From Halohasta salina (lineage in GTDB: Archaea > Halobacteriota > Halobacteria > Halobacteriales > Haloferacaceae): a stretch of DNA of 64,000 nucleotides. Both the position numbers and the translations under genes were made by a program. The stretch's first letter is position 1. Each line of letters begins with the position of its first letter. This document shows, one piece after another, positions 28,563-31,154 of this stretch. Under the pieces are notes generated by a model. That model did not search any database and was not told the origin of the DNA. It saw only the letters and a program-made list of their open reading frames with translations. Location of the stretch: NCBI RefSeq assembly GCF_024178165.1, contig NZ_JAMZIE010000002.1, forward strand, positions 372,001-436,000, read 5' to 3'.

Positions 28563-30896
28563 ATGAAAGAGACAGTGTCGACCGTCTTCGACGATCTGGA
28601 GATCGGGATTACGCTCCACGATCCGGAGACGGGGGCGATCGTCGGCGTCAACAGCCGGCTCGAATCCCTCTACGGCTACACCGAAGCCGAGATCAGGGAG
28701 CTATCGGTTGGCGACTACAGCGCGACCGACGAGGGGTACACACAGGCCGACGCCGAGGCCCGAATCGCGGCGGCCGCCGCCGGCGAGCCGCAAGCCTTCG
28801 AGTGGGTGATCGAGCGCGCCGACGGCCAGCGGGTTCCGGTCAGGGTCCGGCTGGCACGCACCGAACTCGACGGTGAGGCCTACGTTATCGCCGAGATCCG
28901 CGACATTAGCGACCGCAAACAGCGCCAGCAGACCCTCGAAGCCGAACGGGGGTTCATCGAGCAGAGCCTCGAAACGCTCCAAGACGTCTTCTATATGCTC
29001 GATGCCGACGGGAGGCTACAGCGGTGGAACTCGTCGTTTTCGACGATGACGGGCTACACGGACGAGGAACTCGACGGGATGGACGCACTCGATCTCATCG
29101 CGGCGGCCGACCGCCGGCGGGTCGACGACGCGATCACAACCGTCCTCGACACCGGCTCGGTCGTCGTCGAAGCCGAACTCCTGACCGCCGACGGCGAGAC
29201 GATCCCCCACGAGTTTACGGGCACCCGACTGACCGACACCGAAGGGAACCTCCGGGGGATCGTCGGGATCGGCCGAGACGTCTCCGCACGAAAGCGGCGG
29301 CTGGAGCGACTCCGCAAGCAGGAGGCGGCGTTCCGACGTCTCCACCAGACGGCCTCGACATCCGCCCCCTTCGAGGAGAAGGTCGCCGAACTGCTGGAGT
29401 TCGGACGAGCGTATATGGATGTCGAACAGGGCTTTTACACCCGCGTCGACGACGATATCCAGAAGATCGTCGTCGGTGTCGGCCCGAACGAACAGCTCCA
29501 GACCGGGGCGACCGCACCGTTCGCCGAATCCTACTGTCGGAAGACCGTTCGGGGCGACGAGCCGCTTGTCGTCGACGATGCCGCCGCCGAGGGGTGGGCC
29601 GACGACCCGGCCTACGAGCGGTTCGAACTGGGTTGTTATCTCGGGTCGACCATCACGCACGACGGCGAAACCATCGGTACCGTCTGTTTCGCCGATCGGG
29701 ACCCACAGGATGGCGAGTTTACCGACATCCAGTCGACTTTCGTGGAACTGCTCAGCGAGTGGCTGGGCTACGAGCTCGAACGCGCCGAACGCGAGCGGAC
29801 CTACCGCCGGCTGACCGAGCGGATCTCGGATGCCTACTACGCCGTCGACACCGACTTCGAGGTCACCTACTGGAACGACACGATGGCCGCCCGGATCGGC
29901 GTGTCGGCCGACGACGTCCACGGGGAGAACCTCTGGGAGTACTTCCCCGAGGTTCAGGGGACCGTCGTCGAAGATCGGCTTCGGGAGGCGATGGAGACAC
30001 AGGAGCCGACGGGGTGTGAGTACTACTACGAGCCGGCCGACTACTGGACCGAACTCCAGATCTATCCCGACGAGGACGGACTCGCGGTGATCTCGAAGGA
30101 TATCACCGACCGCAAAGAGTACGAAGCCCGGCTCGAACGCTCCAACGAGCGACTCCAAGAGTTCGCCTACATCCTCTCGCACGATCTGCAGGAGCCACTG
30201 CGAATGGTATCGAGCTACGTCGACCTCTTGGAGACCGAACTCGACGAGCATCTCGACGCCGAGACACGGGAGTACATGGCGTTCGCGGTCGACGGGGCCG
30301 AGCGCATGCGCGGGATGATCGATGGCCTCCTGCAGTACTCACGGGTCGAAACCGAGGGCGAACCGTTCGAACCGGTCGACGTCGAGGCGGTCCTCGAAGG
30401 CGTCCGGCAGGACCTCCAGTTCGCACTCGACGAGGCCGACGCCGAGTTGCTGGCCGACGAGTTGCCGACGGTTCGGGGCGACGCCGACCAACTGGGGCAA
30501 CTGTTCCAGAACCTCGTCTCGAACGCCATTGAGCACGGCTCAATGAGCAACCGGTCGGAGACCGGTGACGTTCACAGGAGCGATGCTCCTGTGAGCCAAT
30601 CAGAATCGGGTGGCGATTCTGATAACGCCATCGAACACGGCGGGTCGACCATCGAGATCACGGCCACTGAAACCGCCGGCGGCCACCGGTTTGCGGTCAG
30701 CGACGACGGGCCGGGGATCCCGGCCGACCAGCAGGACGAACTCTTCGGGCTGTTCGACAAGGGTCCCAACAGCGACGGGACGGGGATCGGACTGGCGATC
30801 TGCGAGCGGATCGTCACTCGTCACGACGGCGAGATCTGGGTCGAGTCGACCGAGGGCGAGGGGTCGACGTTCTATTTCACCCTCGATGCGGCCTGA
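28563..30896 (+). CDS. Multi-sensor histidine kinase (PAS-PAS-GAF-PAS-HisKA-HATPase) with hairpin-rich N-box insert
   Basis: 777 residues. Two PAS domains (about 1-120 and 125-240), a GAF domain (about 255-395), a third PAS (about 400-505), HisKA with phospho-His540 in YILSHDLQEPLRMV, and HATPase. ATP-binding motifs are intact (DDGPGIPADQ, GTGIGLAICERI), except that the N box NAIEHG is duplicated around a 34-residue insert. The insert is encoded by four consecutive palindromes. No membrane helix, so ligand sensing is cytoplasmic; cofactor unknown. It faces the REC genes on the opposite strand, which may be its phosphotransfer partners. Confidence 0.93.
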   Translation: MKETVSTVFDDLEIGITLHDPETGAIVGVNSRLESLYGYTEAEIRELSVGDYSATDEGYTQADAEARIAAAAAGEPQAFEWVIERADGQRVPVRVRLARTELDGEAYVIAEIRDISDRKQRQQTLEAERGFIEQSLETLQDVFYMLDADGRLQRWNSSFSTMTGYTDEELDGMDALDLIAAADRRRVDDAITTVLDTGSVVVEAELLTADGETIPHEFTGTRLTDTEGNLRGIVGIGRDVSARKRRLERLRKQEAAFRRLHQTASTSAPFEEKVAELLEFGRAYMDVEQGFYTRVDDDIQKIVVGVGPNEQLQTGATAPFAESYCRKTVRGDEPLVVDDAAAEGWADDPAYERFELGCYLGSTITHDGETIGTVCFADRDPQDGEFTDIQSTFVELLSEWLGYELERAERERTYRRLTERISDAYYAVDTDFEVTYWNDTMAARIGVSADDVHGENLWEYFPEVQGTVVEDRLREAMETQEPTGCEYYYEPADYWTELQIYPDEDGLAVISKDITDRKEYEARLERSNERLQEFAYILSHDLQEPLRMVSSYVDLLETELDEHLDAETREYMAFAVDGAERMRGMIDGLLQYSRVETEGEPFEPVDVEAVLEGVRQDLQFALDEADAELLADELPTVRGDADQLGQLFQNLVSNAIEHGSMSNRSETGDVHRSDAPVSQSESGGDSDNAIEHGGSTIEITATETAGGHRFAVSDDGPGIPADQQDELFGLFDKGPNSDGTGIGLAICERIVTRHDGEIWVESTEGEGSTFYFTLDAA
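30522..30641 (+). repeat. In-frame palindromic insert with duplicated NAIEHG flanks
   Basis: The 18-bp sequence coding NAIEHG occurs at 30522-30539 and 30624-30641 with two synonymous differences. The 102-bp period holds four perfect back-to-back hairpins: 30527-30545 (8-bp stem, 3-nt loop), 30550-30566 (7 bp, 3 nt), 30572-30594 (10 bp, 3 nt) and 30599-30623 (10 bp, 5 nt). It adds 34 residues without breaking the frame. Confidence 0.9.
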
Positions 30897-30943: not shown

Positions 30944-31017
30944 GGGTTCGTGGGTTAGCTTGGCCATACTTCGGGCCTTGGGTGCCCGTGACCCCGGTTC
31001 GAATCCGGGCGAACCCA
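30944..31017 (+). tRNA. tRNA-Pro (TGG)
   Basis: Cloverleaf: acceptor GGGTTCG/CGAACCC with discriminator A, anticodon stem CGGGC/GCCCG around CTTGGGT giving anticodon TGG, T arm CCCGG-TTCGAAT-CCGGG. 74 bases, no intron, no encoded CCA. Confidence 0.94.
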
Positions 31018-31132
31018 TACAACCGCCGACTCAAGAGAGGCGTGTTCTATTTCTGTGAGCGCGGATTCGAAGCAGGGAGTGAAGTGAGCGACAGCGAACG
31101 GAACGACCGAGGTTCGAACCCGGTCGACCCCA
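30996..31132 (+). repeat. Degenerate copy of the tRNA-Pro 3' end downstream of the gene
   Basis: The last 22 bases of tRNA-Pro (30996-31017) recur at 31111-31132 with three mismatches, 115 bp downstream. The spacer contains a GTGAAGTGAGCGACAGCGAA stretch resembling the GCAGCGAAGCGAGC spacer after tRNA-His. No gene is inside. Confidence 0.7.
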
Positions 31133-31154
31133 CCAGCGTCGACACTCGGGTGCC

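Follow-up and report, generated by a model that had tools for sequence, protein, structure and literature searches.

RESULTS

A duplicated N box in a histidine kinase gene

The window, by which we mean the whole 64,000-nucleotide stretch of Halohasta salina DNA that was analyzed, contains a histidine kinase gene whose N box is present twice (Table 1). The two copies, AACGCCATTGAGCACGGC and AACGCCATCGAACACGGC, both encode NAIEHG and differ at two positions, both of them synonymous. From the first copy up to the second, the DNA forms four perfect hairpins, and the left arm of hairpin A1 is the first NAIEHG copy itself. The reading frame is preserved through the insert. The original prediction had described these features correctly, namely, a duplication with synonymous changes only, four hairpins with stems of 8, 7, 10, and 10 bp and loops of 3 to 5 nt, and an unbroken frame. 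It had also placed 102 bp between the copies. This is indeed the length of the added DNA, but the strictly intervening stretch measures 84 bp, and the 102 bp includes one copy of the repeat.

TABLE 1 Features of the kinase locus in window coordinates (R1, covariance model of element B; R2, model of A-type elements)
Feature	Position	Strand	Description
PAS/PAS/GAF/PAS histidine kinase gene, 777 aa	28563-30896	+	ORF; Pfam HATPase_c match only from aa 687, downstream of insert
First N-box copy, NAIEHG	30522-30539	+	AACGCCATTGAGCACGGC
AACG	30522-30525		Native target sequence (preferred parse)
Remainder of first N-box copy	30526-30539		Part of element A (preferred parse)
Element A, 45 bp	30526-30570	+	CCATTGAGCACGGCTCAATG-AGCA-ACCGGTCGGAGACCGGT-GACG; R2 match 30524-30572, E 1.2e-15
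Hairpin A1	30527-30545	+	8-bp stem, loop ACG, perfect
Hairpin A2	30550-30566	+	7-bp stem, loop GGA, perfect
GACG end of A	30567-30570	+	Also target site of B insertion
Element B, 57 bp	30571-30627	+	T-TCACAGGAGCGATGCTCCTGTGA-GCCA-ATCAGAATCGGGTGGCGATTCTGAT-AACG; R1 match 30565-30631, E 1.6e-22 against own genome
Hairpin B1	30572-30594	+	10-bp stem, loop GAT, perfect
Hairpin B2	30599-30623	+	10-bp stem, loop GGTGG, perfect
Second N-box copy, NAIEHG	30624-30641	+	AACGCCATCGAACACGGC; original N box from 30628 on
tRNA-Pro (TGG) gene	30944-31017		3' of kinase
tRNA-like sequence	~31080-31135		GAGCGACAGCGAACGG...GGTTCGAACCCGGTCGACCCCACC; resembles tRNA 3' end, perhaps an old integration scar

A same-genus orthologue that has no insert (L032), 87% identical over the preceding domain, served for comparison. 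Relative to this sequence, exactly 102 bp has been added after AACG. In the alignment, the 3' N-box copy is nearer to the orthologue than the 5' copy is, and our preferred parse therefore assigns the 5' copy to the inserted DNA.

The hairpins are not a product of chance or codon bias. When the inserted peptide was recoded 5,000 times with the codon usage of the gene, the resulting sequences contained no hairpin in 3,863 cases, one in 1,082, two in 54, and three in 1, while four hairpins never occurred. The DNA minimum free energy of the insert was -36.8, compared with -24.7 ± 3.7 in the recoded versions, a difference of 12 kcal/mol in favor of the natural sequence. A search of both strands of the 64-kb window for a second bipartite hairpin pair followed by ACG found none.

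Two adjacent elements of one family

When 171 genomes from the same family were searched at the DNA level, the insert fell into two parts. The first part matched the N boxes of other kinases, and the second matched a dispersed two-hairpin repeat found at unrelated places, with many copies per genome. The single 102-bp unit of the original prediction was thus rejected in favor of two members of one family lying side by side, A (45 bp) and B (57 bp). Both consist of hairpin 1, a short linker ending in CA, hairpin 2, and (G/A)ACG. Throughout the family, the two hairpins share the same orientation and are separated by a linker of approximately 4 to 7 nt that usually ends in CA, with (G/A)ACG following the second. 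Elements sit directly after ACG, usually as GACG or AACG, so that each is flanked by a direct repeat of 3 to 4 bp, and their ends are ambiguous by a few bases. The two types also intermix. Two loci (L171 and L200) carry hybrids of an N-box-type hairpin 1 with a B-type hairpin 2, and in a kinase from another genus (L220), the same N-box position is occupied by a B-type element.

Distribution across genomes

To describe the distribution of the family, we used covariance models of B (R1) and of A-type elements (R2 and R3). R1 had matches in 163 of 169 genomes of the same family, and several genomes contained at least about 31. When genomes were sampled across the phylum, matches came from 32 genomes of this order and from 2 of approximately 164 others. 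The genome under study has a single strong B copy, which is the one in the kinase. The two matches outside the order, in G197 and G316, have E values of 1e-8 and 6e-11 and could reflect contamination, transfer, or the existence of an independent family. A phage source was rejected, as there were no matches among 50,697 phage records.

Among genomes of the same order, R2 matched 88 of 147 and R3 matched 215 of 295. All of the R2 and R3 matches listed were 49 or 55 positions long, corresponding to the 45-bp unit or a multiple-of-three variant plus flanks, unlike the R1 matches, whose lengths varied freely. This statement on A-type length is based on the covariance-model matches because the pattern script accepted only hairpin-2 loops in multiples of three. 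A stricter search for the A-type pattern recovered 21 sites in 18 of 295 genomes, and the reversed control pattern recovered none.

Most of the intergenic copies are of type B. Other B-type copies are found in IS6 transposases and within tnpB or IS605 ends, and a few conserved genes carry one in frame, including those for geranylfarnesyl diphosphate synthase (L064), aldehyde ferredoxin oxidoreductase (L067), and kinases. Some form tandem arrays, a number of them with many hairpins (L094, L096, L226, and L231). In genome G295, the arrays at L226 and L231 are made up of many different hairpin units, each pair ending in approximately GGGACG, and may be a nursery of element variants. One noncoding site has received A- or B-type insertions recurrently (L087, L357, L365, L369, L373, L407, L410, L411, L413, and L422). 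It resembles the 3' end of tnpB/IS605, with weak Rfam matches to HgcC and sot0042, and perhaps lies inside guide-RNA sequence. A known RNA family at this site was rejected, since no Rfam match exceeded the gathering threshold.

A-type units in kinases and housekeeping genes

Histidine kinases hold most of the A-type units, as repeats of 15 to 17 aa in the loop that follows the N box (109 units examined). At the DNA level, these are tandem arrays of 45, 48, or 51 bp with up to five or six units (five or more in L205), and a peptide pattern of VEHGST[SG][SN]R..[DG]D[AS]VEHG is shared across genera. The expectation that such inserts would be widespread in haloarchaeal kinases was therefore well founded. 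Specificity for the N box was not, as elements are found in frame in dozens of unrelated genes and also between genes (mostly B). The phenomenon is thus not confined to the N box.

Once orthologous duplicates were removed, there were 56 distinct nonkinase A-type sites in open reading frames, all in frame. Each of 20 sampled host proteins matched a named NCBIfam or Pfam family, most with one alignment spanning the insert. Hosts identified in this way include PEP synthase, MutS, LeuC, Mre11, valyl-tRNA synthetase (ValS), FolD, PolX, a beta-CASP ribonuclease, adenylosuccinate synthase (PurA), GlmM, formate dehydrogenase, YchF, TrpA, a copper ATPase, enoyl-CoA hydratase, and NMD3. In FolD and ValS, the inserts fall in alignment gaps of solved homologues. 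The host at L195 is adenylosuccinate synthase; its assignment as RNase P p30 was wrong.

Several of these hosts illustrate the behavior of individual elements. In six genomes (L361, L372, L375, L386, L402, and L403), A-type elements lie at, or within one codon of, a single point of the beta-CASP ribonuclease gene. Their hairpin arms differ (SEGRSP, SEVRST, and SAGRSP), a hint that insertion was repeated or that arms were replaced at this spot. Genome G544 has two copies of folD (L329 and L341) with an element at the same site in both, so the gene was probably duplicated after insertion. The genome under study (G000, C11 and C18) contains further A-type insertions (L182, L183, and L184) in two kinases and in a gene resembling a PQQ-type sugar dehydrogenase, which has two consecutive units.

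Empty sites

The original prediction had called for a check of whether close relatives lack the insert, and they do: the kinase orthologues L032 to L038 are empty. Likewise, MutS and GlmM sequences from congeners are without the element, the difference being exactly 45 bp. A further example comes from plasmid pHTUR02 of Haloterrigena turkmenica, where an IS6 transposase gene is filled by a 56-bp B-type copy. With the element removed, the IS6 sequence gave gapless 324-bp matches to intact transposases, and among the empty copies are ones on two further plasmids of this same strain. At 56 bp, a length not divisible by three, the element breaks the frame of the transposase, whereas elements in living genes have lengths that are multiples of three. 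This pattern fits selection acting after insertion.

Pairing is conserved at the nucleic acid level

In three alignments of elements, 96 to 100% of the cells pair, and where a pair varies, its two sides change together, with one-sided changes all but absent. Since these alignments were partly selected for good hairpins, the kinase units provide the stronger test. Among the 109 units, the third base of the Val codon was complementary to that of the Ser codon (V3:S3) in 95 cases (P = 1e-17), and the third base of the Glu codon was complementary to that of the Gly codon (E3:G3) in 98 (P = 3e-20), with both P values overstated by the relatedness of the units. These are synonymous positions, and the covariation is common to many genera. 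Furthermore, changes at residue 1 of the unit (V, D, or A) are matched by changes at residue 6 (T, S, or A) such that pairing is kept. Stem positions thus covary where the protein is indifferent, which indicates that the palindrome is maintained at the level of nucleic acid. Conservation of the protein without conservation of DNA pairing, the outcome that would have pointed to ordinary protein divergence, did not occur, and conservation at the protein level alone was rejected by the synonymous covariation and the compensatory changes. Pairing is either under selection, as would be the case if the hairpin serves as the substrate for movement, or reestablished through intrastrand template switching.

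DISCUSSION

Origin of the insert

With a probability of about 0.86, we interpret the insert as two successive insertions of small palindromes from a mobile family that occurs throughout Halobacteria and whose members can be read as protein. The original suggestion of a haloarchaeal insertion resembling those of Rickettsia is in this respect upheld by the dispersed family, the empty sites, and the recurrence in frame. The covarying stems and the kinship of A and B seen in the hybrids also favor this interpretation. Specifically, a 45-bp A-type element would have entered the N box between AACG and CC and added a disordered linker of 15 aa together with another N-box-like copy. A 57-bp B-type element would have entered between the GACG that ends A and the following CC, either after A or together with it. 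Lengths in multiples of three and a stop-free frame would let the gene survive, presumably with a working kinase, while insertions of other lengths would persist between genes or in transposase genes. Most hosts are expected to gain no beneficial function, the elements being tolerated in surface loops.

Numbers of Y1 transposases do not track copy number, which leads us to favor a single-stranded, hairpin-dependent process as the leading candidate for the mover. Such a process might involve a transposase acting in trans or template switching during replication that is directed by a few bases of target homology; intrastrand template switching could rematch the stem arms. The direct repeat at the two ends of an element may be either a short target duplication or a recognized tag, as in IS200/IS605-type movement. 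At A-type sites, the left flank (element arm) and right flank (target) agreed at 7.36 of 12 positions, compared with the 6.86 predicted by the general GACGNCG pattern (P = 2e-4). This slight excess is in line with a little homology guiding insertion, but as a weak locus-specific signal, it does not amount to a clean long target duplication for A-type elements, and we do not claim one. The N-box sequence within A-type units also offers another route, since gene conversion between kinase paralogs could spread the units that sit in N boxes.

A narrower version of this explanation, which we regard as rather unlikely, is that the elements are terminal-only PATE-like or REP-like units moved by TnpA or RAYT through IS200/IS605-type (Y1) transposition. 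Two hairpins with a short tag at both ends do resemble a minimal left end plus right end, several copies lie in tnpB or IS605 ends, and PATEs with 52-bp terminal-only forms are known in Haloquadratum (PMC3119063). However, genomes that lack an R1 match nevertheless have Y1 genes (three in G004, two in G142, and one in G157), none were detected in the high-copy genome G021, and no copy flanked a Y1 gene among the loci that were read.

Much less probable is a local origin, with the duplication and the hairpins built in place at the N box through slippage during replication and snap-back template switching, and no movement between loci. The duplicated NAIEHG, the identity of hairpin 1's left arm with the N box, and the tandem kinase arrays are all as expected from slippage. 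Yet hundreds of genomes carry the same hairpin-linker-hairpin sequences at loci unrelated to one another, and their empty sites are exact. Local switching probably explains the growth of arrays and the matching of arms rather than the origin of the elements. Finally, the notion of a conserved functional protein insert in the ATP-binding domain of the kinase, its hairpins being a by-product of codon bias, can draw on the peptide pattern shared across genera but is scarcely credible given the recoding results, the base-pair covariation of third codon positions that are irrelevant to the protein, the joint changes of residues 1 and 6, and the orthologues that lack the insert.

Beyond the locus itself, successive insertion of mobile elements admits a broader formulation that we offer only tentatively, at a little short of even odds. 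The elements would form an undescribed, order-wide superfamily of bipartite coding palindromes that still enters conserved genes without breaking the frame. The kinase N box would be a hot spot, pairing or homology between arm and target would help in the choice of site, and no dedicated transposase would be involved. If true, such a superfamily would go on supplying Archaea with new protein segments.

Significance

In the open-access literature, we found no description of in-frame palindromes in haloarchaea. A 2025 survey of bacterial and archaeal REPs covers intergenic regions, with haloarchaea absent from its main text, and describes no such inserts; nor does a 2018 census of archaeal two-component systems. 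Judged from open-access papers, palindromic elements that code in frame are apparently new to Archaea. The persistence of selfish DNA within essential proteins, reported to date from Rickettsia, Wolbachia, and other bacteria, would thereby extend to this domain. Some of the hosts, such as Haloferax volcanii, have good genetics, and the presence of filled and empty sites within one strain or genus makes movement, target choice, and effects on protein function directly testable. The elements also explain the odd low-complexity repeats (VEHGSTSSRTESDD...) of many haloarchaeal kinases, and annotators and structure predictors should be aware that these linkers are insertions.

Comparison with known systems

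Rickettsia palindromic elements (RPE) are approximately 100 to 150 bp long. A published summary puts them at about 150 bp and describes them, together with the WPE of Wolbachia, as lying in frame in unrelated and often essential genes, where they are read through as short peptides, and also between genes (PMC10969869). The haloarchaeal elements likewise occur in frame in unrelated protein-coding genes with empty orthologues, and by this comparison of features rather than sequence, RPE appear to be their closest functional analogue. In contrast to the longer RPE, they measure 45 to 60 bp (45, 56, and 57 bp measured), consist of two short hairpins, and are archaeal and nearly universal in one order.

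The closest structural class is that of the CGTC-tagged REPs (Di Nocera et al. 2013, PMC3733652). These have a short hairpin with an unpaired CGTC at one end and stems of about 8 to 10 bp (8 to 9 bp starting with AT at the tag). Their intragenic copies, many in DNA repair genes, have no dedicated transposase, and the class includes RPE-4 and RPE-6 (PMC3733652). Most haloarchaeal copies similarly have GACG, which is CGTC on the other strand, after hairpin 2; in the window, A ends in GACG and B in AACG. Haloarchaeal stems are 7 to 11 bp; AT at the tag is common but not universal among B copies and occurs in about half of the A copies. Haloarchaeal copies, too, occur within genes, DNA repair genes among them. 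The CGTC-tagged REPs, however, have 4- to 5-nt loops and a CCA tail, are mostly head-to-head dimers, and have been reported only from bacterial phyla (PMC3733652), whereas haloarchaeal loops are mostly 3 nt, the tail is TGGC or TGCT, and each unit has two direct hairpins. Because of the two hairpins, the 3-nt loops, and the shorter length, we do not file the elements as members of either the RPE or the CGTC-tagged REPs.

Two haloarchaeal systems are also similar. PATEs have near-terminal palindromes and short 52-bp terminal-only forms, as well as ends derived from IS605-type elements (PMC3119063). The palindromes, the short forms, and the haloarchaeal hosts are points of likeness, but no IS605-type parent of the present elements was found in the loci that were read. 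The SMR-A elements of Haloquadratum walsbyi (HqIRS42/43/55) are about 110 bp long, homogeneous (commonly >95%), and bounded by terminal inverted repeats; they have no transposase and no target duplication, prefer IS605-type transposons and PATEs, and move in a way that was called enigmatic (PMC3119063). Some of our R1 matches (L091, L094, L087, and L226) also lie in or near IS605-type ends, with many others elsewhere, and 110 bp is twice the length of our unit. As to target duplication, the 4-bp GACG repeat at both ends of the haloarchaeal elements is indistinguishable from a recognized target tetranucleotide. SMR-A differ, by description, in that they have not been reported as protein coding or as crossing genera. 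On the same descriptive basis, SMR-A may be this family as it appears in one genus, or possible relatives of it.
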